Positions 10,061 to 29,107 of a stretch of DNA of 41,060 nt are shown one piece after another (the stretch's first letter is position 1; every line of letters starts with the position of its first letter). The notes beneath the pieces were generated by a model. That model ran no database searches. It was not told where the DNA came from and saw only the letters and a list, made by a program, of their open reading frames with translations. Source of the stretch: Bacteriovoracaceae bacterium (GTDB lineage Bacteria; Bdellovibrionota; Bacteriovoracia; Bacteriovoracales; Bacteriovoracaceae). Location of the stretch: contig JAGSHI010000018.1 in NCBI GenBank assembly GCA_023954635.1, positions 1 to 41,060 on the forward strand, given 5' to 3'. Made by a program: the position numbers and the translations under genes.

Positions 10061-11378
10061 GCCAATTTCAGGATTTTCAAAACTTTCAAAAGAAGAGAAA
10101 ATCAATTTCTTAGTAGATGTATATCTAGGTAAGTCAGAAAGTACTCGTAGTTTGATTCAAGGATTCTGGCACAATAATACCGAAGATCAGAAGGTATTTG
10201 ATGAATTCTCTGAGAATACAATAAGTAACTTTTATTTTCCCTATGGTGTTGTTCCTAACATGATGATTAATCAAAAATTGTTATGTGTGCCTATGGTTAT
10301 AGAAGAATCAAGTGTCGTAGCTGCTTGCTCTAAAGCTGCTAAGTTTTGGCTCAACAGAGGTGGATTTAACGCAAAAGTTATTTCAACAACTAAAAATGGG
10401 CAAGTCCATTTTATCTGGAAAGGCGATTCTGATAAATTAAAATCATTCTTTGAATCAGTTAAAGAAGAACTCATAAACTCTGTCTCTCCTCTCGTCAAAA
10501 ATATGGAAGCAAGAGGTGGAGGTCTACTAGATATAAAGCTTATTGATAGAACTTCGGATGAACCGGACTATTATCAATTATGGGGTGACTTCGAAACCTG
10601 TGATGCAATGGGTGCGAATTTTATCAACACAATTTTAGAGGCCCTTGGAAATTCATTTACTGACCTAGTTAAAGCAAATTCAGAATTTCAAGGTGAAGAG
10701 AAAGATCTTCAAGTAATCATGGCGATTCTGTCTAATTATACCCCTGAATGTGTTGTCGAAGCATGGGTAGAATGCCCAATAGAAGAATTGCAAGATCCAG
10801 CAAGTGATATGTCTTCACAAGAGTTTATTGAAAAGTTTTCTCGCGCAATTAGAATCAGCAAAATAGATGTGAATAGAGCTACAACTCACAATAAAGGTAT
10901 CTTTAATGGAATCGATGCAGTCATTCTAGCGACAGGTAATGATTTCAGAGCTATTGAGGCCTGTGGACACACCTGGGCCTCTCGTCATGGTAAGTATCAA
11001 GGTCTGACTGATGTAACCGTTAATGATGGTAAGTTTAGGTTCTCTTTAAAATTACCATTAAGTTTAGGTACAGTTGGTGGATTAACTGCCCTTCACCCAT
11101 TAGCAAGAACTTCCCTTGAAATGTTAGGTCATCCAAATGCTAAAGAGTTAATGGAAGTCTCGGCATGTATCGGTCTTGCTCAAAATTTTGCAGCATTAAG
11201 ATCTCTAGTAACTACAGGTATTCAAAAGGGTCACATGAAAATGCATCTCATGAATATACTGAATCATTTAGAAGCAAATGATGAAGAACGCAAAAAGGCA
11301 AAACTAAATTTTTCTACTGAAACTATAAGCTATCAGGCAGTGAGGGATTTTATAAATTCCTTAAGACAATATCATTAA
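10053..11378 (+). CDS. mvaA: Hydroxymethylglutaryl-CoA reductase, class II
   Basis: It reduces HMG-CoA to mevalonate with a nicotinamide cofactor. The class II family features are clear: the catalytic Glu in PMVIEESSVVAA (84-85 region), MEARGGGLLD, the cofactor/Asp loop CDAMGANFINT, the catalytic Lys in TTHNKGIFNGIDAV, LGTVGGLTALHPLA, and the flap His in IQKGHMKMH. The 441-residue size fits soluble class II enzymes, and there is no membrane domain. Class II enzymes are historically called degradative, but operon position with mevalonate-consuming kinases and fni shows a biosynthetic role here. Cofactor preference (NADH or NADPH) cannot be decided by eye. No HMG-CoA synthase is in the window. 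Confidence 0.96.
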   Translation: MIKPISGFSKLSKEEKINFLVDVYLGKSESTRSLIQGFWHNNTEDQKVFDEFSENTISNFYFPYGVVPNMMINQKLLCVPMVIEESSVVAACSKAAKFWLNRGGFNAKVISTTKNGQVHFIWKGDSDKLKSFFESVKEELINSVSPLVKNMEARGGGLLDIKLIDRTSDEPDYYQLWGDFETCDAMGANFINTILEALGNSFTDLVKANSEFQGEEKDLQVIMAILSNYTPECVVEAWVECPIEELQDPASDMSSQEFIEKFSRAIRISKIDVNRATTHNKGIFNGIDAVILATGNDFRAIEACGHTWASRHGKYQGLTDVTVNDGKFRFSLKLPLSLGTVGGLTALHPLARTSLEMLGHPNAKELMEVSACIGLAQNFAALRSLVTTGIQKGHMKMHLMNILNHLEANDEERKKAKLNFSTETISYQAVRDFINSLRQYH

Positions 11379-11395
11379 AAGAGGATTTGAATAAT

Positions 11396-12439
11396 ATGAT
11401 GGAACAAACCGTATATGATAATGATTTGAAAGCAATGATTAAGTCCGGTATTAATCAAGAGAAAAATACTCAACACTACTTTGGACATGGAAAACTCTTA
11501 TTATCAGGGGAATACTTTGTACTTGATGGAGCTAAAGCCTTGGCCTTGCCTACTAAGGTTGGACAAAGTATGACAGTAAAATACTCTCAGTCCTTTGAAC
11601 CTATTCTTTATTGGAAAAGTTACGACGTTAATGGAAAACTTTGGTTAGAGGCTAAGTTTGAATTTTGGCACTTTGACTGCTTAGATTCAAATCCTAAACA
11701 AGAAGTTTTGCTACTTCAAAAAATCTTAAGACAGGCCAGAAAACAAAATAATCATTTTTTAAGAGAAGGTGTTGATGTTTTGGTCGAAACATCACTAGGT
11801 TTTCCACTGGAGTGGGGTCTAGGTAGTAGTTCAACTTTAATTTATAATATTGCTCAATGGGCATATATCTCTCCATTTGAGCTTCTTTTTAAAACCTATG
11901 GTGGGTCTGGATATGATATTGCCTGTGCTCAATCAGAAGGACCAATTGTATACCACAAGAATAATACAGGGCCGAACTGGTCACCTGTCGCATTTAACCC
12001 AACTTTTCGAGAGAACTTATACTTCGTTTATTTAGGTAAAAAGCAAAATACAGGAAAAGCAATTGAGTATTACAACTCTATGAGACCATTTGACCCAGAA
12101 TTAATAATGAATTTATCAACAATAACTGATGAATTGATGAAATGTTCAACTTTAGAAGAATTTGAATTCTTACTAACTGCTCACGAAAATCTCATTAGCA
12201 AAAACCTAAAGATGGAGTGTGTAAAAGAGAAACGTTTTACTAACTATTGGGGAGCTGTAAAGTCTCTTGGAGCATGGGGTGGAGACTTTGTTTTAGTAAC
12301 AAGTGATAGACCTCAATCTGAGACTGTAAAGTACTTTGAAGATAATGGTCATTCTATAGTTATTCCATATGACGAAATAATTTTGACTGGTAATACTCCT
12401 CAATATGACATGGCCGATGGTAATGAGTATCTCCAATAA
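11396..12439 (+). CDS. GYDIA-family GHMP kinase, probable phosphomevalonate kinase
   Basis: The frame opens at a TTG at 11387, but GAGGA at 11381-11385 is 10 bases from the ATG at 11396, so I choose that start. It is a GHMP kinase: GHGKLLLSGEYFVLDGA opens the fold, the ATP loop reads WGLGSSSTL, and the subfamily signature GGSGYDIACAQSEGP is intact. The final GHMP motif is GAWGGDFVL instead of the usual glycine-rich GAGGGG. The operon already has a mevalonate kinase and a decarboxylase, and the only missing kinase step is phosphomevalonate to diphosphomevalonate. I infer that role by elimination; it has weak similarity to classical phosphomevalonate kinases. Confidence 0.85.
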   Translation: MMEQTVYDNDLKAMIKSGINQEKNTQHYFGHGKLLLSGEYFVLDGAKALALPTKVGQSMTVKYSQSFEPILYWKSYDVNGKLWLEAKFEFWHFDCLDSNPKQEVLLLQKILRQARKQNNHFLREGVDVLVETSLGFPLEWGLGSSSTLIYNIAQWAYISPFELLFKTYGGSGYDIACAQSEGPIVYHKNNTGPNWSPVAFNPTFRENLYFVYLGKKQNTGKAIEYYNSMRPFDPELIMNLSTITDELMKCSTLEEFEFLLTAHENLISKNLKMECVKEKRFTNYWGAVKSLGAWGGDFVLVTSDRPQSETVKYFEDNGHSIVIPYDEIILTGNTPQYDMADGNEYLQ

Positions 12440-13472
12440 TCAAATTATTGATAGGTTAGGAAGTTGTAATACACTATCCTGGAAAGCTCCCTCTAATATT
12501 GCACTCATCAAGTATTGGGGGAAAAAGGATTTTCAAATTCCTGCAAACTCATCAATTAGTATGACTCTTAATAATTGTTATACGAATTGTATTATGGAGT
12601 TTATAGCTTCTGATAATTTTTCAGTCTCTCTTGAATTTGAAAATAAAAGTGATGACTCATTTCTAAAGAAAGTAACAAAACATATTTCAAGAATAGCTAA
12701 AGATTTTCCTGTTTTAAAGTCTTTTTCCTATACATTTAAAACATCAAATACATTTCCTCACTCTGCAGGAATTGCTTCAAGTGCCTCAAGTATGGCCGCA
12801 ATTAATCTTTGCCTAACCGAGCTTCTAGTAAAACTAGATGAAGTCCCAAATGAGGATTTTTTCCGTTTTGCTTCAGACCATGCAAGGCAGGGATCAGGGT
12901 CTGCATCTCGAAGTCTTTACGGTGGCTTTGTCGACTGGGGAGCTACATCTAACGATTATGGAAGTGTGCAGGACAATATTCATGAAGACTTCATTGATAT
13001 GGGTGATGCGGTACTTATAGTTGATTCGGGTGTTAAAGAAGTTTCTAGTTCTAAGGGACATCAGTTAATGATGTCACACCCACAAAGAGAAGAAAGGTTT
13101 TCTGCCGCCAACGCTAAAACAAAGAAAATGATTGAGATTTTAAAGGATGGAGATTGGAATAGCTTTATTCCACTTCTTGAGTCTGAAGCACTTGAGTTAC
13201 ATGGGCTTATGATGTCTGGGACTCCTTGGTTTATTCTGATGAAACCAGAGACTTTAGCTCTTTTGGACTTATTTAAAAAATGGAGAAACGAAAACTCTGT
13301 TCGAGCTGCATTTACTTTAGATGCTGGACCAAATATACATTTACTTTACCATAAAGATGAAAGAGATCGAGTCTTAGCTTTTATTAATGAACAGGCCATT
13401 TCACATTTAGAAAATGAACAATGGATAGATGATAAAATGGGAATGGGACCTGAAAAGGTTATAATTCAATGA
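12423..13472 (+). CDS. mvaD: Diphosphomevalonate decarboxylase
   Basis: It decarboxylates mevalonate 5-diphosphate to IPP with ATP. Markers are APSNIALIKYWGKKD (the decarboxylase-specific Lys-Tyr-Trp-Gly-Lys), NSSISMTL, the ATP loop PHSAGIASSASSMAA, RQGSGSASRSLYGGFVDW, and TLDAGPNIHLL with the catalytic Asp. Three in-frame ATGs (12405, 12417, 12423) fall inside the end of the preceding gene; I pick 12423 because the chain then begins MSISNNQ with the smallest overlap, but no start has a strong ribosome binding site. Translation is probably coupled. Its end overlaps the next start by four bases. Confidence 0.94.
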   Translation: MSISNNQIIDRLGSCNTLSWKAPSNIALIKYWGKKDFQIPANSSISMTLNNCYTNCIMEFIASDNFSVSLEFENKSDDSFLKKVTKHISRIAKDFPVLKSFSYTFKTSNTFPHSAGIASSASSMAAINLCLTELLVKLDEVPNEDFFRFASDHARQGSGSASRSLYGGFVDWGATSNDYGSVQDNIHEDFIDMGDAVLIVDSGVKEVSSSKGHQLMMSHPQREERFSAANAKTKKMIEILKDGDWNSFIPLLESEALELHGLMMSGTPWFILMKPETLALLDLFKKWRNENSVRAAFTLDAGPNIHLLYHKDERDRVLAFINEQAISHLENEQWIDDKMGMGPEKVIIQ

Positions 13473-14380
13473 AGGGTGAGAGTAGAACATTTAATTCAAA
13501 AGTATTACTCTTTGGTGAGTATAGTGTAATCAAAAACTCGATGGCCCTAAGTATTCCTTATAGTCTTTTTGAGGGAAGATTATCATTTAGGAAAGACCAG
13601 TCTAAAGTAGTTGATCAAGAACTAAAGGCACTCTGCCTTTATTTAAAAAAACTAAGTAATAAAAATGAGCTTACATTTAACTTTGATGCTCAAAGTTTTG
13701 AGTTTGATATTGGTCAAGGATTATATTTTGATTCGACAATCCCTCAAGGTTTTGGTGTCGGTAGTAGTGGTGCTTTATGTGCAGCAGTCTTTGATCGATA
13801 TTCAAAAAATGCTGAAGGTAATGATATTCAATCTTTGAAAACATACTTTGCACAAATGGAAGGACATTTTCATGGATCTAGCTCTGGAATGGATCCACTC
13901 ATTAGTTATTTAAACCGTGCTACCCTGAGACAAAGTAATGGATCAATTGGAACTGTAGACCTCCCTCGATTTAACGAAGGAAATGGCGGTCTATTTCTTT
14001 TAAATACTGGGCGATCTAGACGAACAGAACCTCTTGTTAATTTATTTTTAGAAAAATGTAAATCTGAAGAATATAACCAAAAGATTGAGAATCAACTTCT
14101 AACGATTACAGATAATTGTATTACGACATTTTTAGAAGGCCAAATAGAAGAATTGTATACTGAATTCAAAAAACTTTCTGAATTTCAGTTTCAAGAACTA
14201 AGTCCAATGATCCCAAATTTGTTTCAAGATATATGGCAAAAAGGTCTATCTGATGACTTTTTTCAACTTAAACTTTGTGGTGCTGGAGGAGGAGGATTTT
14301 TGCTCGGAATGACTCCAAACTTTGAAAAGGCTTCCCATATCCTACAATCATTTGAAATAAGGCCTCTCATTAGGTTTTAA
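13469..14380 (+). CDS. mvk: Mevalonate kinase
   Basis: A 303-residue GHMP kinase that phosphorylates mevalonate. The N-terminal KVLLFGEYSVI motif, the ATP loop GFGVGSSGALCAA, the GSSSGMDPLI segment with the catalytic Asp, and the C-terminal CGAGGGGFLLG are all present, so it should be active. Start and previous stop share ATGA. The specific assignment to mevalonate kinase rather than another GHMP kinase rests on FGEYSV and the SGMDP motif, as well as on operon position; a swap of roles with the GYDIA kinase is possible in principle. A weak hairpin follows the stop. Confidence 0.88.
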   Translation: MKGESRTFNSKVLLFGEYSVIKNSMALSIPYSLFEGRLSFRKDQSKVVDQELKALCLYLKKLSNKNELTFNFDAQSFEFDIGQGLYFDSTIPQGFGVGSSGALCAAVFDRYSKNAEGNDIQSLKTYFAQMEGHFHGSSSGMDPLISYLNRATLRQSNGSIGTVDLPRFNEGNGGLFLLNTGRSRRTEPLVNLFLEKCKSEEYNQKIENQLLTITDNCITTFLEGQIEELYTEFKKLSEFQFQELSPMIPNLFQDIWQKGLSDDFFQLKLCGAGGGGFLLGMTPNFEKASHILQSFEIRPLIRF

Positions 14381-16268: not shown

Positions 16269-18290
16269 TTAGAAAGTGTAATTATATGACATAGTAAACC
16301 TTTCAAATTTGTCTACTATATCATCTGTATCTTGAAGCAGACTTAAGACAGACTCATTACTTCCTTCAAAAGTTTCGTAATTAAACCGTATCTTATGTCC
16401 ATCAGCAGGCTTGTACTCAAGGCCATATATCTGAAGTTTACTATCTTTTAATAAGTCAAAATCAAACGAGTAATTAACTCCGAACTGGGGAGTAAATTCA
16501 AAATCAATTCTTCCAAGATGACTATGTTTATGGGCCCTACTGTCAGTAGAGGAGTGTATAAAAGATGCTGAGTATTGAGCACGTTGCATTTTTTCACGAC
16601 TGAACTCATAGATGATTTTGATTTGATCCATGAACAAGATACCGGCCCAATCTGTAATATTGTAATTTATACCAAGTACATAATTAATAAACTCATCATC
16701 TTGACCACCTTCTGACTTCTGTGAAAGAAATTCACCATAATGTCCTATCTTTCCAAAAGTTGTTGAATAGCCAAAAGTAGAAATAAAAACCTTTGGAAAT
16801 TCTTCAAAGTATTCAACAGTGGAGTTTGCTGGAGTTACGATATCAATGAAAATATTTTCTCTATAAGTTGCATATTGACTAGGTCCATAGAGAAACCCTA
16901 AGAAATAATCCCATCCAGCAAGAGTCCCCTTGAATTGAAGTACATTTTGAAAGTATTTCAACTCAGACTCAGGGTAATTTAACTCGGCCTTTGCTTCATC
17001 TGGGATGACATCTGTACTAACTCTATTTTGTAACCTCGGTGCCTTTGTAGGTAAGAAAAAGGGGACTAGTGCATAACTGATAGTCATATCTCCGATATAA
17101 AAGTCGGGATTCAACATGTAATTACCAAGGTCTTTATGGTTGAGAGGATCGTAGAGATCTTTTGGAGTAACTCTGTCTGCCGGAGAGTGAATATTGGCCA
17201 GTCCCATTTTTAAAACTTTTTTACCAACAGAAAGGTCTACATTGTCCCAAGAATTGAGGAAATATAGCTCATTAAGCTCAATGATCCCTCTACCTTCTTT
17301 TCTGTTATTAAAAATTTGAAGTATATCTCTATAGATTTCATTTTGATTTCCATATTCAAACCAACCACCTGCATATATATAGGCTCGGCCCTTTCTTCGG
17401 TTTAGATTCCAGTCAAGTCTTGTATCCCCAGTAAACTCTCTAAACTTTACAGGTGAGTTTACATTGGTATCAGTGTTATTTTCGGGTACATCTTGGTTAT
17501 AATAAACACCTCTTAAGAAAAACTCTAGATCGATAGATTTATCTACATTTTTAACTTCTTCATCTTTCTTAGGCCTCTTTTCTCTTAAAAGTTTTCTAGT
17601 TTCTTGTTGTTTCTCTAGTAATTCTGCATAATCTTTTTTGTCTTCTTCATCCTCTTCCTCTTCGTCTTCGTCCTCGTCCTCGTCTTCGTCATCATCTTCG
17701 TCATCATCATCTTCTTCTTCCTCATCTTCCTCATCTTCAGTTAAAACTTCTAATGGGATAAGAGGTATACTCGCTACAGTTCCTGTCTTAACTGAAACTT
17801 CCTTTTTATTCTCTGTAAAGGTAAGTACATAGTTCTCACCATAATACCCAGATTTATAAGATCTTATGTTTGAGATGATTCCTGAAGGTCTATTTTTAGT
17901 GATACCCCTCTTTGTTCTTACGTACATGGAACCATTTATTAAGCTTACTTGTTGAAGGCCTTTTTGACTGATACCTCTAATCAAAACTTTGGAGTTTGGG
18001 GCCACAACAACGACACCATTAGTTTTAAACTCAAGGTAAAGGATACTAGAAGGCATTGTTGCAACAATAGTTCCTGGGCGAATAAGTTTATTTTCTTTTA
18101 AGACTCGAGGTTTTTTTTTAACCCCAAAAAATCCATAGGCCCTACCAAGTACTCTTGCAACTTTAACATCTGCATTTGGGTTAAAACTTGGGCCTTTTGG
18201 GGGGGCCGGAATGACACTTTGTTCTTGGGAGAAACCAGTGTTGGAGAGGAAAATAAGAGATATAAGTGTTAGGGTAAAAAGTTTTTTCAA
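16269..18290 (-). CDS. FecR-domain protein fused to an acidic linker and an outer-membrane barrel
   Basis: Start is a TTG at 18290, the only one that preserves the signal peptide (KKLFTLTLISLIFLSNTGFS); an AGGA is 11 bases upstream. Residues ~40-170 look like a FecR domain (VARVLGRAYGFFGV, LINGSMYVRTKRG). Then comes a run of ~45 almost pure Asp/Glu residues (~183-228) followed by a Lys-rich helical patch. From ~245 to the final Phe673 the chain is aromatic and alternating like an outer-membrane barrel, with KVLKMGLANIHSPADRVTP resembling DUF1302-type porins. The gene is 16 bases downstream of a LolA-like gene, so the two are likely partners in envelope transport. A surface or periplasmic Ca-binding role for the acidic tract is only a guess. 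Confidence 0.75.
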   Translation of the reverse strand: MKKLFTLTLISLIFLSNTGFSQEQSVIPAPPKGPSFNPNADVKVARVLGRAYGFFGVKKKPRVLKENKLIRPGTIVATMPSSILYLEFKTNGVVVVAPNSKVLIRGISQKGLQQVSLINGSMYVRTKRGITKNRPSGIISNIRSYKSGYYGENYVLTFTENKKEVSVKTGTVASIPLIPLEVLTEDEEDEEEEDDDDEDDDEDEDEDEDEEEEDEEDKKDYAELLEKQQETRKLLREKRPKKDEEVKNVDKSIDLEFFLRGVYYNQDVPENNTDTNVNSPVKFREFTGDTRLDWNLNRRKGRAYIYAGGWFEYGNQNEIYRDILQIFNNRKEGRGIIELNELYFLNSWDNVDLSVGKKVLKMGLANIHSPADRVTPKDLYDPLNHKDLGNYMLNPDFYIGDMTISYALVPFFLPTKAPRLQNRVSTDVIPDEAKAELNYPESELKYFQNVLQFKGTLAGWDYFLGFLYGPSQYATYRENIFIDIVTPANSTVEYFEEFPKVFISTFGYSTTFGKIGHYGEFLSQKSEGGQDDEFINYVLGINYNITDWAGILFMDQIKIIYEFSREKMQRAQYSASFIHSSTDSRAHKHSHLGRIDFEFTPQFGVNYSFDFDLLKDSKLQIYGLEYKPADGHKIRFNYETFEGSNESVLSLLQDTDDIVDKFERFTMSYNYTF

Positions 18291-18306: not shown

Positions 18307-19104
18307 TTATCTGGTGTGCATCCCTTTAGTGATATATCTTTCAGTAAAAGTTATATCTTCAATTTTTTTATTAACTTTTCTATCTGTAGTATCCATCGTT
18401 GTCTCATGGAAACCGTGTCTGGTCATTACTGATTTTTTTGCGCGCCAGAGACCTTTCCCATATTTTTTCCATTTACTATTTTTAAGAGATTTTAAAAGCT
18501 TTCCTTTTTTATCATAGTAATCAACTTTTACAGTGGTATATCTCTTTTTACGAACTTCTAATACTCTTTTTGAATATCCTGTTTCGTTTACCTTATCTTT
18601 GTTTTTAGGAATTGCTTCAATTACATAACATGTTTTTTTTCCACACTTTTTGGTATTAAGGCATTTGTAGTCGTAATTTGATAAGTTTTCACCTTCTAAA
18701 TCAGAGTAAGTAAAGTCTGTTCCCATGAAATATTTTCTTTTTCCTGAACTTGCAATTCTTTGCATTTTTCTAAGAGCGGGAAGGTAAAGCCATTGATCAT
18801 CACTTCTTCCTTTATTTTTCCAGTTTAGAAGAGCGGTTCCTTTTATATCATTCGGCTCAAGGAAAGAGGTCAAAGTCTTTTGTTTCCCTTCAGAGAGATC
18901 CATTGAATGTCTTCTTAACTTACGTGCTTCTTTAACCCCATTCTTTAGGTCTTCAAGAATTACATTTTGTACAGATACTTCATAGTCAACCTTCTGTTTC
19001 TTTTCCTGCTTTTCCATAATTTTTTGCCCTGTCTTTTTACATTCACCAGAATGAGCAAAATTGAAGAGAGTAAACAATAAGTTTAAGGAGAGAAAAATAC
19101 GCAT
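18307..19104 (-). CDS. LolA-like outer-membrane lipoprotein-sorting family protein
   Basis: A 265-residue periplasmic protein with a signal peptide (MRIFLSLNLLFTLFNFAHS). The family signature is around residues 85-130: GTALLNWKNKGRSDDQWLYL, then PALRKMQRI and FMGTDFTYSDLEGE. Proteins of this type (LolA-like, Pfam LolA_like) have a lipid-binding half-barrel fold and are usually encoded next to RND-type exporters and large outer-membrane proteins. Here the partner is the FecR-barrel gene 16 bases downstream; no RND exporter is in the window. A TATAAT box lies 41 bases before the start. Confidence 0.82.
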   Translation of the reverse strand: MRIFLSLNLLFTLFNFAHSGECKKTGQKIMEKQEKKQKVDYEVSVQNVILEDLKNGVKEARKLRRHSMDLSEGKQKTLTSFLEPNDIKGTALLNWKNKGRSDDQWLYLPALRKMQRIASSGKRKYFMGTDFTYSDLEGENLSNYDYKCLNTKKCGKKTCYVIEAIPKNKDKVNETGYSKRVLEVRKKRYTTVKVDYYDKKGKLLKSLKNSKWKKYGKGLWRAKKSVMTRHGFHETTMDTTDRKVNKKIEDITFTERYITKGMHTR

Positions 19105-19179: not shown

Positions 19180-20670
19180 TCAGACGACTTTTTTTATCTC
19201 ATGTGGGGTAGGTAAACCGATTTCTTTTGTCAGGATTTCTACTTTTTCATTAAAAGTGGGTATTTCCTTTAGAGAATTGGCCAATTCTATGAATGAAGAT
19301 CTAGGGTCTTTAGCAACTTCAGCTTTTTGAAGGTTTAAATGATGTTTTGCAAACTTTGTCCAAAATTTTGGTAAGAACTTTTCCCTTTGTATAATGTCTT
19401 TAGCACAAAGTGAAATTACCCATGTAGAGTTTTCATCAATTAATTCGACTAACTTTTCTTGAGCATTTGAGTCGAGATTATGAGCATCGTCGATTATAAT
19501 TATAGTTTGATTTAGGTTCTTTAAATCATCAAAAGACCCGCTATTCTCAAAATGAACAACTTCCCAATCATGAAAATGTGAGGAGACAACCATCTCGTTA
19601 ACTACTATTTCTAATGCCTCTTTTGAATGATGGTTAATTACAACATTTTCTTTATTATTTTTAACTTTCTGTATCAAGTGAAGAGTGTTTTTGTCTTTAT
19701 TGATATCTAGTAAATTAAGAAAATTACTTTTAAGACCAGGGTAAAACTTTTTCATTTTAGAAAGAGAGTTGACTGGGTTAAAAAATTGGAAATGACTACT
19801 GAAGAAAATTGATAATAAATTCGCAAAAGATTCATCATTTACTGAGAACCGTTTTTCGGTTGTTTTGTCTACAAATTCTAAAACTCCAATAACTTTATGG
19901 AAACGGTTATATAGAGGAACAGCAAGGCTTGATTCTACTTTCTCGAAGCTATTTGAGTCTTCTAGAATGGGTCTATATAAATTTAATACTTCAGGGTTAC
20001 TTAATACTTTTCCTGGTACACCTTTTCGATAATCAATTTTAAGCTCTACCTCATCTTGTGAGGTTGAGAATTCACAGACCAATTGATTAGTCGAAACATC
20101 TATTAGCCAGATTCTGCCTTTTTTAGCATCAATTCTTGTTAAACTAGTGTGTAAATAATCAGAGATCTTTAAATCATCCAGATCATTAGTCATATCCTTA
20201 AAAGTATTGAGCATCAAGGCGGTAGTCTCTGACATCTCATCAAAGTCTAAAATCCTGGTCCTGGTTGAACTTGCTAAAAGATAAGAATTAAGTCTTTTCT
20301 TACTAAAATTTTCCACAAAAGAATGAATCCAATGAATATAGTCATCATTCTTTGGAACATAAAGGCTGTATTGATAAAGGTGCCTACCTTCAGAGTTGTT
20401 TTTTCTACTTAGTATTATATTTCCGAATACGTTAATTTTATTTTGTCCAAAAAATTTAGAAGGCTTTGACATTTCAAGTTCTACTTCATCTGAGGGAAGT
20501 TTTTCTGAAGTTGAGAAACTAATAAATTCAAAATTAAGATCTTCAATAACAACAGAGACGTTCACGAGTTCAATTGACTTCATTTGAAGCTTTGCGACAA
20601 CTTTATCTTCAGGTAAGACATTTACCCTAAAAGACTTGAACAATTTATATTTTTTCTGATTGAGTTCCAT
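19180..20670 (-). CDS. GAF-like / degenerate sigma-54-activator-like protein (short paralogue)
   Basis: A 496-residue cytoplasmic protein with the same plan as its divergent neighbour. Residues ~1-125 resemble a PilZ-like domain, but the Asp/Asn-x-Ser-x-x-Gly motif reads NVSVVI, so cyclic-di-GMP binding is unlikely. Residues ~150-290 look like a GAF domain (GRIWLIDVSTNQLV, RKGVPGKVL, SSLAVPLYN, VIGVLEFVDK). From ~325 it resembles half an AAA+ domain: there is a Walker-B-like TIIIIDDAHNLD at 389-400 but no Walker A, no GAFTGA loop and no helix-turn-helix. It is therefore probably a signal-sensing partner, not an ATPase. A TTGGATAAAC stretch gives a weak ribosome binding site. No known protein name fits. 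Confidence 0.62.
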   Translation of the reverse strand: MELNQKKYKLFKSFRVNVLPEDKVVAKLQMKSIELVNVSVVIEDLNFEFISFSTSEKLPSDEVELEMSKPSKFFGQNKINVFGNIILSRKNNSEGRHLYQYSLYVPKNDDYIHWIHSFVENFSKKRLNSYLLASSTRTRILDFDEMSETTALMLNTFKDMTNDLDDLKISDYLHTSLTRIDAKKGRIWLIDVSTNQLVCEFSTSQDEVELKIDYRKGVPGKVLSNPEVLNLYRPILEDSNSFEKVESSLAVPLYNRFHKVIGVLEFVDKTTEKRFSVNDESFANLLSIFFSSHFQFFNPVNSLSKMKKFYPGLKSNFLNLLDINKDKNTLHLIQKVKNNKENVVINHHSKEALEIVVNEMVVSSHFHDWEVVHFENSGSFDDLKNLNQTIIIIDDAHNLDSNAQEKLVELIDENSTWVISLCAKDIIQREKFLPKFWTKFAKHHLNLQKAEVAKDPRSSFIELANSLKEIPTFNEKVEILTKEIGLPTPHEIKKVV

Positions 20671-20772: not shown

Positions 20773-22680
20773 ATGTCAAAGGAAATCCGAATAGTTAACG
20801 AACCCAAACCAAGGATACTGGTGGGACACTTTTATAGTTTGAAACAATTGCGAGCATTTAGAATACCGGTCATGAAAGATGACAAGGTATCGCTCGGACT
20901 TTTTCAAGGTGAACAAGAAATTTTAAAAAGTGATTCCTTAGAATTAAAAGATATAAGTCTTACTGGTGTTGGATTTGTATCTGAAAAAGAGTTTGTTACA
21001 GGGCAAAAGCTAGAATTAAAATTAGAGTTTTCTGATTATAAAAATATAATTGATGGAATAGTTGTAAGGTCTGGACAAATTGACGGTAAGTTTGCAACAG
21101 GAATAATTTTTGATTTTGAACAAGGTGAAACATTCGATAGTTTTTTCCAAAAGTTTATAAAAACATTTCCTGCAAAAAGATTAAAGTCACAATTAATAAA
21201 TTTACTAGATGAACAAAATTTATCAGTAGCAGAAACTACAGATATGGACACGCTTTCAGATCTAAATGCGGAAGTGTCTAACTACGGGAATAGCCCGATG
21301 TATCTTGAGTCTATCAAGTTACAGATGATTGAAGTTTTAGAGTTAGATTTCTTGGATATACTACGAAAAACCAATGATAAAGATTTTGTAGCCTTGAATA
21401 ATGAATTAGAGATAGAGGAATCTTTTGATGTTAGTGAAAGTATAATAAATTCAGCTTGTGAAGATAAAAAGACTATCAATGCTCAAATTATGAGTGATCC
21501 TCTTCTTTCTAGTGATAACTTTTTAAGAAACTACCATAAGCATTATATTCTCGCAGAATCTATTTCGAGAGAAAATGGAGAAGTAAAGGGAATTGCGATC
21601 GCATCAAGAAAAAATAATCCAAAGAAATTTAATGAGACAGACTTAAATATATTCAAACTCTTTTGTCGAGAAGTAAGTAGGTTTTTAACTATTTCAGGTC
21701 AGGGTATTTCTAATGAGCCAGTGAAGTACCTCAATCCTAAAAAACCCCGTGAATTTGCAATGATTGGGCAGAGCGAAGATGTACTTAACATCAGAAAGTT
21801 TATTTCAAAAAGTAAGGCCGAAACTGAGCCAATTTTAATAAAAGGTGTTGCAGGTGTTGGCCGAAAATTACTGGCAAAAATTATTCATAGTGAAGGTAAG
21901 ACAGGCCATTTGGATTTTCGTGAATTTGATGGAGGGTTTGTAAATCATATTAGAGCTTTATCTGATATTTCCTCAAGCAATCGAGTACCATTAGAATATA
22001 AAGAGATTGGTTCTATATATATTACAAATTTTAATAAACTCGATGTTGACTTCCAAAAGAAGCTATTAGAATTTGCATATAGTAATAAATCTCAACTAAG
22101 GTTTATATGTTCTGTTGAATGTACTTCTGAGGAAGAATTAAACCCTGAAGTAACAAAATCTTTTAAGAATAATAAAGTTAGAATTTCTGAACTTAAAAAA
22201 AGAAAAGAAGATATTCCAATCCTCGTAAACCATTTAATAAAAAAAGAATGTAAAAAAAGGGGTCTTTTACCAAAAACGACTTCTGCAAATGTTCTTGATA
22301 AGTTTAAACTTCATGAGTGGAAAGGCAATGTCAGGGAATTAAAAACTGCTGTTTCTAGGCTTGTCTCTTGGCACTCATCTAGTCATTATATTAATACATT
22401 CCCACCGGAGAATTATCAAATATTTGATACCATAAATAATTCTGAGTTTGATATAAGAACAAGTGTTGCTTATCATACTCCTCTTTTTGATGAGTTTAGT
22501 AAGGAAGAACTTGATATAATGATTAAGTGGTCATTAGTTGCTGTCGAAATGAAAAATCATGACGGTAGTTTAAAGAAAACCGCCCTTGCCCTTGGAAAGC
22601 CTCATACTGAATTAGTTGAAATATTTGAGAAAGGTGAGGAGATACTAGAAAATTATGAGCAAAAAAAGAAAGTAGCTTAA
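20773..22680 (+). CDS. PilZ-like / GAF-like / degenerate AAA+ protein resembling a sigma-54 activator
   Basis: A 635-residue protein. Residues ~20-130 are PilZ-like: LRAFR at 26-30 and LKDISLTGVGF at 58-68, the latter fitting the Asp-x-Ser-x-x-Gly motif for cyclic-di-GMP. The middle (~180-310) is GAF-like. From ~326 it follows a sigma-54 activator: MIGQSEDVLNIR, then GVAGVGRK at 358-365 where Walker A should be GxxGxGK, GSIYITNFNKL at 413-423 where Walker B should have Asp-Glu, and WKGNVREL at 516-523, the intact sensor II region. The GAFTGA sigma-54 contact is absent. The C-terminus (GSLKKTALALGKPHTELVEI) is like a decayed Fis-type helix-turn-helix. ATP hydrolysis is unlikely. No Shine-Dalgarno is evident. 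Confidence 0.68.
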   Translation: MSKEIRIVNEPKPRILVGHFYSLKQLRAFRIPVMKDDKVSLGLFQGEQEILKSDSLELKDISLTGVGFVSEKEFVTGQKLELKLEFSDYKNIIDGIVVRSGQIDGKFATGIIFDFEQGETFDSFFQKFIKTFPAKRLKSQLINLLDEQNLSVAETTDMDTLSDLNAEVSNYGNSPMYLESIKLQMIEVLELDFLDILRKTNDKDFVALNNELEIEESFDVSESIINSACEDKKTINAQIMSDPLLSSDNFLRNYHKHYILAESISRENGEVKGIAIASRKNNPKKFNETDLNIFKLFCREVSRFLTISGQGISNEPVKYLNPKKPREFAMIGQSEDVLNIRKFISKSKAETEPILIKGVAGVGRKLLAKIIHSEGKTGHLDFREFDGGFVNHIRALSDISSSNRVPLEYKEIGSIYITNFNKLDVDFQKKLLEFAYSNKSQLRFICSVECTSEEELNPEVTKSFKNNKVRISELKKRKEDIPILVNHLIKKECKKRGLLPKTTSANVLDKFKLHEWKGNVRELKTAVSRLVSWHSSSHYINTFPPENYQIFDTINNSEFDIRTSVAYHTPLFDEFSKEELDIMIKWSLVAVEMKNHDGSLKKTALALGKPHTELVEIFEKGEEILENYEQKKKVA

Positions 22681-22681
22681 C

Positions 22682-25600
22682 TTATCTTTTTACTCCAAGT
22701 CTTTTTTCTCTTCTTATCATTAAATATCGATTAGATAAAATTCTCCAAATTGTTATATCTGGTTTATTTACGACATCTTTTTCTTCATAAACATATTCGT
22801 ATTCTGCATTTTCTCCATCCATACTTGAGTCTGCCAACGATTCGCCTTCATCAATATCTTTCTCTTTAAGCATTGAGAGGTTAATTTTGTTAGGCATAAT
22901 CATTAAGTTTGATAAAGCATTTAGTTTAGCAATCTTAGGGAGAGTGTTCCCTTGATTCATTGATTTTTTCAGTATCCCATTTTTGTCCTCAAGTTTCTTT
23001 GCAGGGACTCCAAAATAACCTGAAGAGTACCTTGCAATATTTTTTTGTATATCTGCTTTCGAAACTCTGGCATTAATAAACTTAACAAGTGCCTTGTCTG
23101 ATAAATCAATTTTCTTCTTCCCAATTCCCTTGAGGTCTTTATTCGCCTTATCAATTAACTGCCAAGCAATACGTTTTGCTTTTGCAGATCTTTCAGATAA
23201 AACATTCTTATCAATATGGCTTACTGTAATTTTACCTGAAGATATATTTGATGAATCTTTAAGCATACTCTTTGTTTCGAGGTCATTGTGTAACTCTCTC
23301 TGATCTGCAGAGATTAGAGGTAGTTTAAATTGCTTACAACTATTGTTCTTTTGACACCCACAACTGCTGTCAACTTTTCCACTAGAATTAAGACAAGTTC
23401 TTTCTCCACCAGAGGGATCAGAGGATGAAGAGATTCCTGCAGATTTAGATGAACTGGAGGAAGAAGATGAAGAGCTAGAGCTGTTTGATGAATTAGAAGA
23501 AGTACTACTCGAAGAGGAGTTACTACCAGACTCGACACCTGCAAAAGTACTCTTGCTATTATTCTCAGTAGGCTCGTTTCCTTCTCCATGGTTTGCAACT
23601 TTCTCTTTCAGTTTGTCAGCTTTTGCCATAGTAGTATCGAGACCACCATCTGGTCCAAACATAACTTTAAATCTTTGTAGAATTCCATCTATGACTTGGG
23701 CCCGACTTCTAAAAGTTTCGGCCATTGATCTTGCGACTCCTGCATACTTTCCAGTCATTGCTGTTGCAGTTCCTGCAAGGCCAGCTGTAATAGACCCACA
23801 TATTATTTGTGGTGTACCAGCACCACAACCGCTACAGGCAACATTTGTAGCAATACCCATAGCAATATCTACAGCAGCAAGTGCTGTGGCAGCTGCAAAA
23901 AGACCCATAAGCATTGTCATGTTAGAACCTTTTTTGTCAGCAATTTCGGCACCTGTAATGAGCGCTTTTTTGTAGAATTCAAAGGCTTCAACTTGATTCT
24001 CATAACTAACACCCTCTAGGCCTTTTTTTGCCTCGAGTGCAGCATATTCAGATTTTAGTTGTTCAATTTTAGCTTTATTTTCATCATCAACTTGAGTTTC
24101 AAGTAGAGGAGTCATTAAAGCTGCTACTCCAAACATCGCTGCAGACATACATCCTGCTATGGCCGAAGCAGCGACACCTGCAATGGCTATCGCAAGCCCA
24201 ATCTCTAAAGAGACAGGGTTTTCTTGATATTGAATATCATTGATGTTTACTGCACCTTCTTCTTTCGCAAGTTTTTCAAATTCTTTTAACTCTTCGTAAC
24301 ATGCATCTTTTTCGTTCTTCGTTGCTTTTCCTTCACATCTAAGAACAGCTCTCGTGAGCATTTTATTTTCTTCTTCCGTCACACATTTATTTGCGTGGCA
24401 ATTCCAAATTTTTCCACTTGATTTACATGAATTTGCTTCAGAGTTTCCAGTGGTATCACATTCTGTTGCAAGATAGGCGACACCAACTTGCTTAAGTTCT
24501 TCTAAACATGCATCTTTTTCGGCCTCGGTAGGCATAGTTTGACAACGCATGGCCTCTTCAGTGAGAACTTCATTTTCGGCCTTTGTAATACAGAGATTCA
24601 TATTACAATTCCAAACTCTTCCTTTGGACTTACATGATGAGGCCTCGGGGGTGCTTTGGTCACATAGGCCACCAGCAATGACATATTCGGTTGCACTTGA
24701 TTCAAGAGCGGCCATACATTGTTCTTTTTGTTCTTTGTCTTTAAGGACCTGGCATTTTGCTGTTTCGTCAGATAATTGATCATTTTGTTCTTGAGTTAGA
24801 CAGTATTCGACATTACAGTTATATACTTTTCCGTCTGCTTGACATTTTTTAGCTGTATCAGAAGTCCCTTCACACATTACACCACCTGCTATTTCTTTCG
24901 CAGTAGTATATTCCAAGTCGGACATACATTTATTAATTTCAGATTTTGTGGGTTTGTTATAACAGTTAACTGCTCTCGCAGAAATAACTCCGTTATACTC
25001 ATCAGTAACACAGTAGTTTAGGTTACAATTGAAGCGTTTACCTTCTTTTTTACATTCATTATTTTGTTCTTCAATATTTTCACACATTGAGCCTGAGGCA
25101 ATATCTACGACAGTTTGATCTCTTAGATCTGAGAGACACTTTTCTTTTCTAGACTTGTCTGTTTCTTCTGCACAACCTTGGGCATTTGTAACAAGACGAT
25201 CATTGTATTCTTTAGTTACGCAATAATTTATTTCACAGTTCCAAACTTTTCCACTCTTCTCACAGTCCATAGCATCTGGAGATGTTTTATCACAAATTGA
25301 GCCACCTGCGAGGTCTGCTATCGTTTGAGTTTGAACTTCTGACATACAGGCATCAACTGCCATTTGGTTGTCTAGTCCATAACAATCTACAACTTGTCCT
25401 GTGAGTTCAGCATTATACTCCTGAGTTACACAGTAATTGATATTACAGTTAAATACTTTCCCTTCAGCTGCACATTCTGTCGCTTGAGGGGTATCGTTGT
25501 CACATAAGGATCCACTCGCAACTTGCTCTACAGTTTCGTCTTTTAAAACTGCCATACATGAATCAATTTGTGCTTGATTAGGTTTGTCGTAACAAGAGAC

Positions 25601-28600
25601 CGCCTTGTCTGTTAGCTGATTATTGTAATCTTGAGTTACACAAAATTTAACATTACAATTCCAGACTTTACCTTTTGATTCACAGTCTTTTGCTTCTTGA
25701 GTTGATTTGTCGCAAATAGAACCACTCGCAATATCTCGAACGGTTTTCTTTTTAAGGTCCGCAAGACAAGTATCAACTTGCGCTTGTGGGCCAAGTGCAT
25801 AACACTTCTTGGCCTCACTTGCGAGTTGGTCATTATAAGATTTAGTGAGACACATTTTTACATGACAATTATAGACTTCACCTTTTTCAGAACATGCTTT
25901 TGCTTCAGGTGTATCTTGAGAACAATTAGCACCCCCAGCGATTTCGCCAACAATCACATCTTTGAGGCTCGCCATACAGGAATCAATTTCGGACTGAGAA
26001 GGCTTTTTGTAACATTCAACTGCACCATCTGCGATTCTTTGATTGTACTCAGCGGTGAGACACATATTTGCACTACAGTTCCAAGATTCTCCCTCTTTAC
26101 ATTGAGAGGCTTCGGGTACTGTTTGATCACAAAGTTTCCCTCCTGCAATGTCAGCTACTGTTCTCGCTTTTATATCTGCCATACATGCATCAGCTTCTGC
26201 AGTTGATGGTTTGCTATAACATTCTGCCGAATCAGTTGCTAATTTCTCGTTATAGTCTTTGGCCAAGCAGAAATTAACATTACAATTCCAGACTTTCCCT
26301 TTTGCTGAACATTCTTTGGCCTCTGAGGTCGTTTGGTCACAAAGAGCTCCAGATGCAATTTCTTTAGCCGTAGTCTGTTTAAGATCTCTCATACAAGTAT
26401 CTTTTTCGGCCTGAGAAGGTTTCTTAAAACATTCTTTAGCCTTTAGGGCTAGGTCATCATTATAAGCTGTAGTTAAACAGAACTTTACTTCACAATTGTA
26501 TATGTGGCCTGGTTTTGATTCACATGATGTCGCTTCTGGAGCGTTCTTATCACAAAGTGCTCCTCCAGCTATATCTCCAACAGTTTTATCTTTTAATTCA
26601 TCGACACAAGTTTGAGTTTCGGCTTTTGTTGGAAGTTTGTAACAAGCAGATATGTCATCTGTTAATTGTTTATTGTAATCTTGGGTTAGACAGTATCCGA
26701 CGAGGCAATTCCAAATCTTGCCATCACTAGAGCAGGCAACGGCATCTTCACCTGATTTGTCACAAAGGGCTCCTCCTGCAATATCAGTAATAGTGTCAGA
26801 TCGAAGTTGTTCCATACATTGATCGATCTCACTTTGAGCTGGCTTGGAGTAACAAGTAACAGAATCTGCGACTAGTTTTTCATTATATTCTTGAGTAAGA
26901 CAAAAATTTACATTACAGTTCCAAACTTTTCCTTCTGCGGTACAAGCGACAGCATCTGGAGTTGTGTTGTCACAAAGAGCTCCGCCTGCAATTTCTGCAA
27001 TAGTATCTTTTCTAAGTTGCTCCATACATGAGTCAGATTGTGCTGGAGTTTTATTTTCGTAACAATTAACTGCTGAATCGGTTAATTTATTATTGTAATC
27101 TTCGGGAAGACAAAACTTAACCTGGCAGTTCCAAACTTTTCCATCTTCTTTAGCGCATTCAACAGCTGCTGGATCTTGAGCATCACATAATGCACCACTC
27201 GCAATATCACGAACAGTTTTCTTTTTAAGTGCTGTAAGACAGTTTTCTTGATCAAGCTCATTCGGCTTATCGTAACAAACAACAGTTTCACCAGTTAAGT
27301 TGTCGTTATACTCTTTTGTAACACAAAAATTTAAATTACAGTTCCAAACCATTCCTTTCGAACTACAATCTTTATACTCCTGTGTCGTATTATCACATAA
27401 GGCACCACTAGCAATATCTTTTGCAGTATCCTTTTTTAATTGTGTCATACAATCGATTTTTTCTTGTTCAACTGTCTTTTGATAACAAGTAACAGTCTTA
27501 TCAGTTAAACCTTGATTATATGCATCTGATAGGCAGAAGTTTACATTGCAGTTCCATGTATGACCGGGGAGTGCATCACAATTCTTTGCTTTATCCGTAT
27601 CTAAGGAGCATAGGCTTCCAGAAGAAATATCTCTGACTGTTTTTTCTTCTAGTATATCCATACAAGCATCAATCTGGGCCTGATCATCTTTTACATGACA
27701 ATCAACCGCTCCAGCTCTTAACTGTGCGTTGTATTCTTGTGATAGACAATAATTAGCTGAACAATTCCATACTTTTCCTTCTGCTTCACAAGCTGCTTTC
27801 TCAGCTGTTTTTGCAGTCTGACAGCTACCACCATATTGGGCCATCATGTCTGTCCATTTTTGAACACATGCATCTTGTTCTGCTTGAGTTGGTTTAGACT
27901 GGCACTTATTATATTCTTGCTTGATAACAGTATCTTCTTTCGGAGTAATACATTGTTCTGAAATACAACTCCATACTAATGCTTTTGACTCACACATAGA
28001 TTTTTGTGCACTCGTGGGAGTACACTCTAATATTTTATATTCTGCAACAGAGGTCAGAGCATTTTTATTACAGGCATCTCTTTCGGCAGCTGTTGGCTTG
28101 CTCTTACAATCATTAAATTCTGCATTTAAGTTTGCATTCGCATCACTTGTTAAACACATCTTTGCTAGACAGTTCCAAGTTTGGCCACCGGCCTTACACT
28201 CAGTTGCTTTGTCATTATTGGAAGTATCACAGGCGTTGTAGCTACCATTGTTGAAATCGTTAAAATCTTTTTTAACCGCATCCTGACAAGCAAGTAACTT
28301 TTGTCCATCAGTTTTATATTCTTCCTTACAGATATCCATCTGTTGGTTGAGAATAAGGTTTTCTGAAACAGTGAGACATAATTGAAGGCTGCATTCCCAA
28401 ACCATACCATTATTTCTACATTGAACAGCTAAATCTGTTTGTAAACAAGGATCGAGTGGAGCTCCATTTGACAAGTCTCCTGTCCCTCCGTTTTCTGTAC
28501 TTGCATTTGCAGTGATTGTTGTATTAATTTCAGATTGGAGAGTTTGCACGCAAGTTCTTTTTGTATTTATATCAGTATGGTTTTTACACTCAGTAGCTTT

Positions 28601-29107
28601 GTTACTTAAAGTTGTATTTTGATCATTTGTAAGACACTGCATGAACATACAATTAAATACTTTGTCTGCTCCCGTACAAGTCGCAGGAGTCTGACAAGTT
28701 TGTCCTGGTGCTAAGACAATCTCATATGCTTTTTGTTCAAGTCCCTGGGCACATGCAATCTTTTCAGAAAATGAACCTTGGTTACATTTTTGAGCTTCAG
28801 ATTGAAGTTCATTATATTGTTGTTGGGTCACACAAATTTCAATCCCATTATAAGAGAACCATTGACGACCAGATTCTGAACAAACCTGCTGGGGTGTTTT
28901 AATGGAAGACTCTGCATAGGCCTTTGAAAATAAAATATTATCAACTATAAAGAGTATAGGGGTTGTCGGGGCCTCAAGTTTTAAAGTTGGAGAATTTAAA
29001 TAACCAGTTCTGTACCCATAGTTTGTCACTTCTACCAATGGGTAAAGAGCGAACTGTAGGTTCAATAGGATGGTCACTAAATGACTAATGATCTTGAAAT
29101 TTTTCAA
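22682..29107 (-). CDS. Giant exported six-cysteine-repeat protein (2141 aa)
   Basis: A single uninterrupted frame starting at an ATG preceded by GGGGGA. Residues ~1-65 carry a hydrophobic export segment (LVTILLNLQFALYPLV). From ~76 to ~1604 the chain is a tandem array of about 21 complete units plus a divergent first one, each ~70 residues with six cysteines spaced C-x9-C-x8-C-x4-C-x15-C-x11-C and a conserved KVWNCNVNFCLTQEYN core. After the array come two hydrophobic stretches (around EIGLAIAIAGVAASAIAG and MLMGLFAAATALAAVDIAMG), a Ser tract, a small Cys motif (SSCGCQKNNSC) and a basic tail ending in ISNRY-like ILSNRY. The product should be disulfide-stapled outside the cytoplasm. I recognise no family and assign no function. 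It converges with the PilZ/AAA-like gene, two bases apart. Confidence 0.88.
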   Translation of the reverse strand: MKNFKIISHLVTILLNLQFALYPLVEVTNYGYRTGYLNSPTLKLEAPTTPILFIVDNILFSKAYAESSIKTPQQVCSESGRQWFSYNGIEICVTQQQYNELQSEAQKCNQGSFSEKIACAQGLEQKAYEIVLAPGQTCQTPATCTGADKVFNCMFMQCLTNDQNTTLSNKATECKNHTDINTKRTCVQTLQSEINTTITANASTENGGTGDLSNGAPLDPCLQTDLAVQCRNNGMVWECSLQLCLTVSENLILNQQMDICKEEYKTDGQKLLACQDAVKKDFNDFNNGSYNACDTSNNDKATECKAGGQTWNCLAKMCLTSDANANLNAEFNDCKSKPTAAERDACNKNALTSVAEYKILECTPTSAQKSMCESKALVWSCISEQCITPKEDTVIKQEYNKCQSKPTQAEQDACVQKWTDMMAQYGGSCQTAKTAEKAACEAEGKVWNCSANYCLSQEYNAQLRAGAVDCHVKDDQAQIDACMDILEEKTVRDISSGSLCSLDTDKAKNCDALPGHTWNCNVNFCLSDAYNQGLTDKTVTCYQKTVEQEKIDCMTQLKKDTAKDIASGALCDNTTQEYKDCSSKGMVWNCNLNFCVTKEYNDNLTGETVVCYDKPNELDQENCLTALKKKTVRDIASGALCDAQDPAAVECAKEDGKVWNCQVKFCLPEDYNNKLTDSAVNCYENKTPAQSDSCMEQLRKDTIAEIAGGALCDNTTPDAVACTAEGKVWNCNVNFCLTQEYNEKLVADSVTCYSKPAQSEIDQCMEQLRSDTITDIAGGALCDKSGEDAVACSSDGKIWNCLVGYCLTQDYNKQLTDDISACYKLPTKAETQTCVDELKDKTVGDIAGGALCDKNAPEATSCESKPGHIYNCEVKFCLTTAYNDDLALKAKECFKKPSQAEKDTCMRDLKQTTAKEIASGALCDQTTSEAKECSAKGKVWNCNVNFCLAKDYNEKLATDSAECYSKPSTAEADACMADIKARTVADIAGGKLCDQTVPEASQCKEGESWNCSANMCLTAEYNQRIADGAVECYKKPSQSEIDSCMASLKDVIVGEIAGGANCSQDTPEAKACSEKGEVYNCHVKMCLTKSYNDQLASEAKKCYALGPQAQVDTCLADLKKKTVRDIASGSICDKSTQEAKDCESKGKVWNCNVKFCVTQDYNNQLTDKAVSCYDKPNQAQIDSCMAVLKDETVEQVASGSLCDNDTPQATECAAEGKVFNCNINYCVTQEYNAELTGQVVDCYGLDNQMAVDACMSEVQTQTIADLAGGSICDKTSPDAMDCEKSGKVWNCEINYCVTKEYNDRLVTNAQGCAEETDKSRKEKCLSDLRDQTVVDIASGSMCENIEEQNNECKKEGKRFNCNLNYCVTDEYNGVISARAVNCYNKPTKSEINKCMSDLEYTTAKEIAGGVMCEGTSDTAKKCQADGKVYNCNVEYCLTQEQNDQLSDETAKCQVLKDKEQKEQCMAALESSATEYVIAGGLCDQSTPEASSCKSKGRVWNCNMNLCITKAENEVLTEEAMRCQTMPTEAEKDACLEELKQVGVAYLATECDTTGNSEANSCKSSGKIWNCHANKCVTEEENKMLTRAVLRCEGKATKNEKDACYEELKEFEKLAKEEGAVNINDIQYQENPVSLEIGLAIAIAGVAASAIAGCMSAAMFGVAALMTPLLETQVDDENKAKIEQLKSEYAALEAKKGLEGVSYENQVEAFEFYKKALITGAEIADKKGSNMTMLMGLFAAATALAAVDIAMGIATNVACSGCGAGTPQIICGSITAGLAGTATAMTGKYAGVARSMAETFRSRAQVIDGILQRFKVMFGPDGGLDTTMAKADKLKEKVANHGEGNEPTENNSKSTFAGVESGSNSSSSSTSSNSSNSSSSSSSSSSSSKSAGISSSSDPSGGERTCLNSSGKVDSSCGCQKNNSCKQFKLPLISADQRELHNDLETKSMLKDSSNISSGKITVSHIDKNVLSERSAKAKRIAWQLIDKANKDLKGIGKKKIDLSDKALVKFINARVSKADIQKNIARYSSGYFGVPAKKLEDKNGILKKSMNQGNTLPKIAKLNALSNLMIMPNKINLSMLKEKDIDEGESLADSSMDGENAEYEYVYEEKDVVNKPDITIWRILSNRYLMIRREKRLGVKR
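24299..28882 (-). repeat. Coding tandem repeat, ~21-22 units of ~210 bp
   Basis: Each unit encodes about 70 residues with six cysteines. Units in the middle (roughly 25.0-27.6 kb) are most alike, such as GGALCD or SGSICD openings followed by VWNCNVNFC and CYxKP; the first four and last three units are more divergent, with different spacing between the last Cys of one unit and the first of the next. The repeats have drifted at DNA level, so the array is old rather than a recent expansion. Confidence 0.88.

Follow-up and report, generated by a model that had tools for sequence, protein, structure and literature searches.

A giant exported cysteine-rich protein in a marine relative of predatory bacteria

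What might a bacterium do with a giant exported protein that has 138 cysteines among its 2141 residues, most of them in one long array of similar modules? The question is raised by the gene of P0001, which lies in a stretch of 41,060 nucleotides (the window; contig JAGSHI010000018.1 of assembly GCA_023954635.1) from a Bacteriovoracaceae bacterium, a marine relative of predatory bacteria. Judged by sequence comparison, the gene belongs to a Bacteriovoracaceae-wide family, and its orthologues fill the same position in the chain with other repeats, points missed by the preliminary description of the window. The reading favoured here, to which we give slightly better than an even chance, is that P0001 is a Sec-exported, disulfide-stiffened stalk anchored in the envelope or membrane.

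The P0001 module is about 70 residues long and has the pattern C-x9-C-x8-C-x4-C-x15-C-x11-C. The steps from cysteine to cysteine are 10, 9, 5, 16 and 12 inside the module, with 18 to the following module, and bear out exactly the spacings of 9, 8, 4, 15 and 11 residues in the preliminary description. That description had estimated 21-22 modules over about 1500 residues with about 130 cysteines. Both figures were close: there are 21 full modules (residues 138-1621, 126 cysteines) and one degenerate module with another four. What follows the export segment matches the profile of the cysteine module, and the four-cysteine state of the degenerate module is also seen in the one-module orthologues of two other genomes (G004 and G095).

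The array is real and not a product of chance. Two independent metagenome-assembled genomes (MAGs) of the same genus carry it in identical module order, and their contig ends break the arrays at different points. Each of the 17 modules compared from the closer MAG has its best match in the P0001 module of the same number, and nearly all modules of the more distant MAG do likewise; this matching order indicates that the array predates the split of these species. Every aligned cysteine is conserved in the two MAGs (107/107 and 86/86), at overall identities of 78% and 56%, and the gene is under purifying selection, with a proportion of non-synonymous differences (pN) of 0.14 against 0.74 for synonymous ones (pS). 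Compared with each other, the modules of P0001 have a mean identity of 36% in amino acids and 51% in DNA, with maxima of 60% and 66%. Because they are so divergent at both levels, a false expansion of the array during assembly is unlikely.

The cysteines themselves vary in a way that points to disulfides. Of 54 modules from outside the arrays, 36 have C3, and all of these also have C1 (a cysteine at -19 to -34 from C4); the other 18 have neither. P0001 itself obeys the rule, since its degenerate first module is without both. On a tree of the 38 proteins bearing both characters, the states of C1 and C3 agree in all 38, with six changes; a test on independent pairs had five pairs only, all agreeing, for which p = 0.0625 is the lowest value possible. 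Because C1 and C3 are always retained or lost as a pair, the data support a C1-C3 disulfide, while the pairing of the other four cysteines into two further disulfides, C2-C4 and C5-C6, is a guess. The host genome encodes DsbB, a VKOR-DsbA fusion and several DsbA-like proteins. Three disulfides per module outside the cytoplasm had been proposed earlier. The C1/C3 concordance, the invariant cysteines and the Dsb and VKOR genes agree with structural disulfides; as to the number, the C1-C3 pair is the supported one, the other two being guessed.

The fold of adjacent units, whose prediction the preliminary description had suggested, was modelled with AlphaFold2 for modules 9-12, from an alignment that also held further module blocks from the P0001 gene and its orthologues. 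The prediction is good, with a mean predicted local distance difference test (pLDDT) of 88.5 and a predicted template modelling score (pTM) of 0.73. The predicted module is compact, mainly helical and of alpha-beta-beta-alpha-alpha order: a short helix comes first, then a beta hairpin bearing C3 and C4, and last two longer helices in which C5 and C6 lie. Neither Foldseek (best E 0.97) nor VIA-align (best Z 5.2, inside the range of common arrangements) gave a convincing solved relative in the Protein Data Bank (PDB), and none was found in BFVD. Weak serum-albumin rows were taken as a common helical arrangement and not as a relationship. Such a weak search result with a model does not prove that the fold is new.

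Sequence searches agree with the earlier statement that the unit matches no known repeat family, as far as Pfam, NCBIfam and PDB sequences are concerned. No Pfam family, including EGF, TIL, sushi and VWC, exceeded its curated cut-off with P0001 (best E 0.005), nor did four homologues match Pfam; NCBIfam gave no family up to E 0.05, and the best PDB sequences had E 0.86 with the whole protein and 1 with the module profile. PHROGs, too, offered just one weak family (E 0.004), of unknown function and without a stretch that passed. A known repeat family is thus rejected as the identity of the module. A phage or plasmid origin is likewise rejected: the collections of phage, plasmid and viral-contig sequences had no match. 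A scan for the module-core pattern in the genomes of 84,980 species found three genomes, two labelled Bacteriovoracaceae and one Deltaproteobacteria, the last probably the same-genus MAG G002. The pattern is strict, and distant one-module relatives that escape it are recovered by profile searches. No description of the family was found in the literature. The module thus appears to represent a domain family that neither Pfam nor NCBIfam contains; like the C-terminal region of the protein it is undescribed, and the protein family is restricted to its lineage.

The extent of that family emerges from a profile (A3) of one-module proteins, in which a six-cysteine module, hydrophobic regions, a cysteine cluster and a tail lie in one chain. 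A profile search and a look into Bacteriovoracaceae genomes had been suggested at the outset. Of 129 Bacteriovoracaceae genomes, 124 have a match to the profile; the 240 other genomes of the phylum have none. P0001 belongs to the family: it matches over its C-terminal part with E 3.4e-180, a value partly due to construction as P0001 is itself a row of A3, and a single-sequence search with P0001 independently finds one-module homologues, with E down to 6.6e-17. A count of up to 12 paralogues per genome was dropped, since most profile matches in the host genome are modules of the P0001 gene itself.

A tree of the C-terminal region sets a clade of 14 proteins, including P0001 (support 100/99), apart from 30 others, nearly all of which are one-module paralogues of 590-830 residues. 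Within the clade, the ends are shared and the middle varies. Members from G004, G095, G012 and G060 have no array and are 584-617 residues long. Members from the host genus have the six-cysteine array (22 modules; 2141 residues). The G029 member (1745 residues; L026:7779-13016, also L041, at a locus that partly reads N) has about 700 residues of N-terminal ELKAAG-type repeats, ten residues each (A-x-x-L-K-x-A-G-x-[ST]), which replace most six-cysteine modules and are followed by the remaining ones. Finally, in six genomes from four genera, 27-29 four-cysteine modules of about 49 residues lie between two six-cysteine modules, in proteins of 1992-2047 residues with 126-131 cysteines. The four-cysteine repeat had no Pfam match in the L107 protein, the one tested. 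It may derive from the C5-C6 hairpin of the six-cysteine module, for which a profile comparison (probability 83%) is no more than suggestive. Because there are two different repeat units, arrays have arisen at least twice; the inner branches of the clade are partly weakly supported, so the number of independent origins is not fixed. In G004, the one-module orthologue occupies the equivalent locus, between two regulator genes and trxB, in opposite orientation. The array of P0001 is an expansion of a single-module ancestral plan, which the preliminary description did not notice.

Other variants of the family were seen. A member of 1797 residues with 19 cysteines (G008, L106:4794-10187) has a proline-rich middle followed by charged YDxxKxDFDxY-type repeats. 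In G016, two adjacent genes divide a member between them: the signal segment and module are in one (L125:9172-10050), the C-terminal part and tail in the other (L125:7935-9167); other g15 genomes show a similar pattern of short matches. In G093, an open reading frame (ORF) of 564 codons with 34 cysteines (L130:11119-12813) adjoins a family member of 1111 residues.

The ends, then, are what the clade of 14 keeps. The P0001 gene lies on the minus strand, which the preliminary description had left unstated. At the N-terminus, P0001 begins with a TTG codon at 29107 (the stop is at 22682), and a GGGGG run just upstream could be its ribosome-binding site. In the one-module homologues, the module begins directly after a hydrophobic segment that resembles an ordinary signal peptide. 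Because this segment immediately precedes the module there, the export of P0001, which was claimed earlier and agrees with the hydropathy of its own N-terminus, is supported.

At the other end, the C-terminal third, with its hydrophobic segments, cysteine cluster and common tail, is the conserved core of the family, and was absent from the preliminary description. The consensus of the tail, S-[IL]-[WF]-x2-[IV]-[ST]-x-R-Y...RL, comes from the window and from loci L137-L166. A profile of the tail (A7) finds 5-9 proteins per genome in nine Bacteriovoracaceae genomes; the one genome tested from a different family in the phylum has none. Some of the proteins found had gone into the making of A7, so the best E-values, but not the extra members, are partly due to construction. 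The end of the tail lies 0-15 residues short of the stop in 30 of 30 loci examined. Once the last 60 residues are removed, its bearers form three groups with no detectable similarity between them. The tail thus looks like a sorting or anchoring signal.

From these parts, a mechanism can be proposed. P0001 would be exported by Sec. Once outside the cytoplasm, its N-terminal 1600 or so residues would fold as a string of 22 small modules held by disulfides. The C-terminal third, with its hydrophobic segments, cysteine cluster and tail, would hold the protein in the cell envelope, presumably at a membrane. The array, if extended and exposed at the surface, would be a spacer holding the N-terminal end at a distance from its anchor, and contact with other cells or surfaces would be the likeliest use, given the predatory lineage. 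The preliminary description went further, to a stiff fibre tens of nanometres long that could serve in attachment or prey contact; its interpretation is supported in part, namely for the unmatched repeat unit, export and structural disulfides. The strongest argument for an anchored stalk is the exchange of the spacer between orthologues whose ends stay the same. The module array with its invariant cysteines, the C1/C3 concordance, the Dsb and VKOR genes, the signal-like segment before single modules, the well-predicted module, the syntenic orthologue in G004, purifying selection and the common tail also speak for it. Because related genera place other spacers between the same ends, selection on the spacer seems to concern bulk properties, such as its reach, stiffness or resistance to proteases, and not one sequence. 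Several points weigh against this proposal. No adhesive or ligand-binding domain from Pfam or NCBIfam was recognised at the N-terminal end, and no known secretion domain that would explain crossing of the outer membrane was found in the protein. Furthermore, the putative membrane topology of the C-terminus is taken from hydropathy only, and a structure model of the C-terminal domain from three sequences was unusable (mean pLDDT 38.7).

The neighbouring genes raise another possibility. P0001 might stay in the periplasm, attached to the inner membrane, and serve an exporter of lipids or hydrophobes as a bridge or accessory. It would work with MMPL-type, LolA-like and barrel-like partners, and its array would span or scaffold the periplasm. 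Genes for the LolA-like and barrel-like proteins adjoin the giant gene in G009, G089, G059, G082 and G088 and lie nearby in G029 and in the window; in G009 they come after a gene for an MMPL-type transporter, and so they do in G082, where that gene is cut by the edge of the stretch. A total length of about 2000 residues, which recurs in several genera, would also fit a fixed gap. However, neither gene stands beside the giant gene in G035, and G004 has only a short fragment resembling the barrel gene, so the link is not obligatory. Moreover, the one-module orthologues, with about 600 residues, could not span a fixed gap. We regard an exporter bridge as unlikely, though it is the best placed of the alternatives.

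A somewhat poorer prospect is that P0001 is a secreted matrix or coat protein. Its hydrophobic segments would then not serve as membrane anchors; the chain would either be set free or use its tail to build a coat, with bulk and stability supplied by the modules. The hydrophobic segments are indeed only moderately hydrophobic, rich in glycine and alanine, and contain conserved cysteines, and the tail is common to several groups of proteins. The position of these segments is constant across the family, however, and no cleavage or assembly motif was recognised. A reservoir in which 138 reduced cysteines bind metal or buffer redox, tied to the adjacent thioredoxin reductase, is very improbable in spite of the very high cysteine content and the position of trxB as the next gene, given that neither C1 nor C3 is lost without the other, as a disulfide would predict, that P0001 has an export segment, that trxB does not track the number of cysteines, and that a family member of similar size has a middle nearly free of cysteine.

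An anchored stalk invites comparison with known surface proteins. Fibrillar adhesins are long monomeric surface proteins with repeated stalk domains and an adhesive domain (PMC8286594). P0001 resembles them as a long chain, exported as judged by hydropathy, with tandem domains as a spacer and an N-terminus distal to a C-terminal anchor-like region. It differs in having no adhesive domain recognised with Pfam, no known stalk domain and no known anchor motif, and in modules that are disulfide-rich and predicted to be mainly helical. P0001 may work like the stalk of a fibrillar adhesin, and is not filed as one, as no adhesive domain was found. In periscope proteins, rod-like arrays consist of repeats that are highly alike in DNA and vary in number between strains (PMC8201768). 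The array of P0001 would likewise set the projection of the N-terminus, and array length differs between relatives. In contrast, its modules are divergent and keep their order between species across the genus, while the type of repeat changes between genera; P0001 as a periscope protein is rejected. The mosaic adhesive trimer (MAT) fibres of Bdellovibrio are also exported fibre proteins of a predator in the same phylum. They are trimeric and beta-helical (PMC10769870), whereas the P0001 family has cysteine modules of a different predicted fold and does not extend to the phylum genomes searched outside Bacteriovoracaceae. Finally, the CHCH or twin CX9C proteins share cysteine-linked helical hairpins, and NDUFB10 came first in the search of PDB sequences with the module profile; the match is not significant (E about 1), and both the cysteine spacing and the beta hairpin differ.

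The features of the gene and its surroundings are listed in the table. The gene for thioredoxin reductase is syntenic also with the one-module orthologue in G004, so its adjacency as a reflection of cysteine load was rejected. The convergent regulator may link P0001 to cyclic di-GMP. Further away, the window has one of the two full-length SecA genes of the genome (36423-38978; the other is at G000:C107) and genes of the mevalonate pathway (10053-14380; HMG-CoA reductase, diphosphomevalonate decarboxylase and GHMP kinase), three of which (11387-14380) are syntenic in G004.

Table. Features of the P0001 gene, its neighbours and its four-cysteine orthologues (positions in the window unless a locus is named)
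Feature	Position	Strand	Basis and remarks
673-aa protein, FecR-like N-terminus, then putative outer-membrane barrel, C-terminal F	16269..18290	minus	inspection; no Pfam match
LolA-like / DUF1329 protein	18307..19104	minus	Pfam PF17131 E 4e-55, PF07044 E 9e-9; synteny
Convergent sigma-54-activator-like protein	20773..22680	plus	sub-threshold PilZ match, 20.9 bits against cut-off 22.5; similar to 19180-20670; synteny
P0001, whole gene, 2141-aa Cys-rich exported protein	22682..29107	minus	ORF and translation; array also in two other MAGs of genus
C-terminal tail, last ~38 aa, ...ITIWRILSNRYLMIRREKRLGVKR	22685..22801	minus	tail profile A7; common to otherwise dissimilar proteins
Cys cluster C-x10-C-x-C-x5-C, aa 1905-1924	23336..23395	minus	A3: three Cys columns invariant, fourth nearly so
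Ser-rich linker, aa 1860-1897	23420..23530	minus	sequence
Hydrophobic region 2, aa 1730-1785, Gly/Ala-rich	23753..23920	minus	hydropathy; position conserved family-wide
Hydrophobic segment 1, aa 1634-1669, Gly/Ala-rich, invariant Cys	24101..24208	minus	hydropathy; Cys invariant in A3
Module 21, aa 1550-1621, adjoining putative anchor	24245..24460	minus	best match of last G029 module; position of the single module of short homologues in A3
Array of 21 full six-Cys modules, aa 138-1621, 126 Cys	24245..28696	minus	Cys spacing, module profile, AlphaFold2 of modules 9-12
Degenerate N-terminal module, aa 76-137	28697..28882	minus	4 Cys: C2, C4, C5, C6 kept; C1 and C3 missing
N-terminal hydrophobic export segment, aa 1-66	28910..29107	minus	hydropathy; hydrophobic core aa 6-24, second hydrophobic stretch ends AYAES
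TrxB, thioredoxin-disulfide reductase, next gene upstream of P0001	29385..30314	minus	TIGR01292 405 bits, over cut-off; synteny
Four-Cys arrays, C-x5-C-x17-C-x10/11-C-x13, in ~2000-aa orthologues	L102:2919-8969, L103:4959-10937, L104:4723-10836, L105:5155-11298, L107:6511-12612, L108:4558-10662		

A wider generalisation is offered tentatively, as possible but doubtful: Bacteriovoracaceae might have a stalk class of their own, with fixed ends, an interchangeable disulfide-rich middle of roughly constant size (about 2000 residues and about 130 cysteines) built independently from different modules, an uncharacterised delivery route that recognises the tail, and a use in cell contact. The family adds a domain family that Pfam and NCBIfam lack, with a confidently predicted module, to a lineage known for predation, and Bdellovibrio apart, little has been described of the contact machinery there. 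Where orthologues swap one disulfide-rich spacer for another, nature has in effect tested the requirements of a molecular stalk, and the common C-terminal tail hints that Bacteriovoracaceae have a sorting or anchoring route yet to be characterised.

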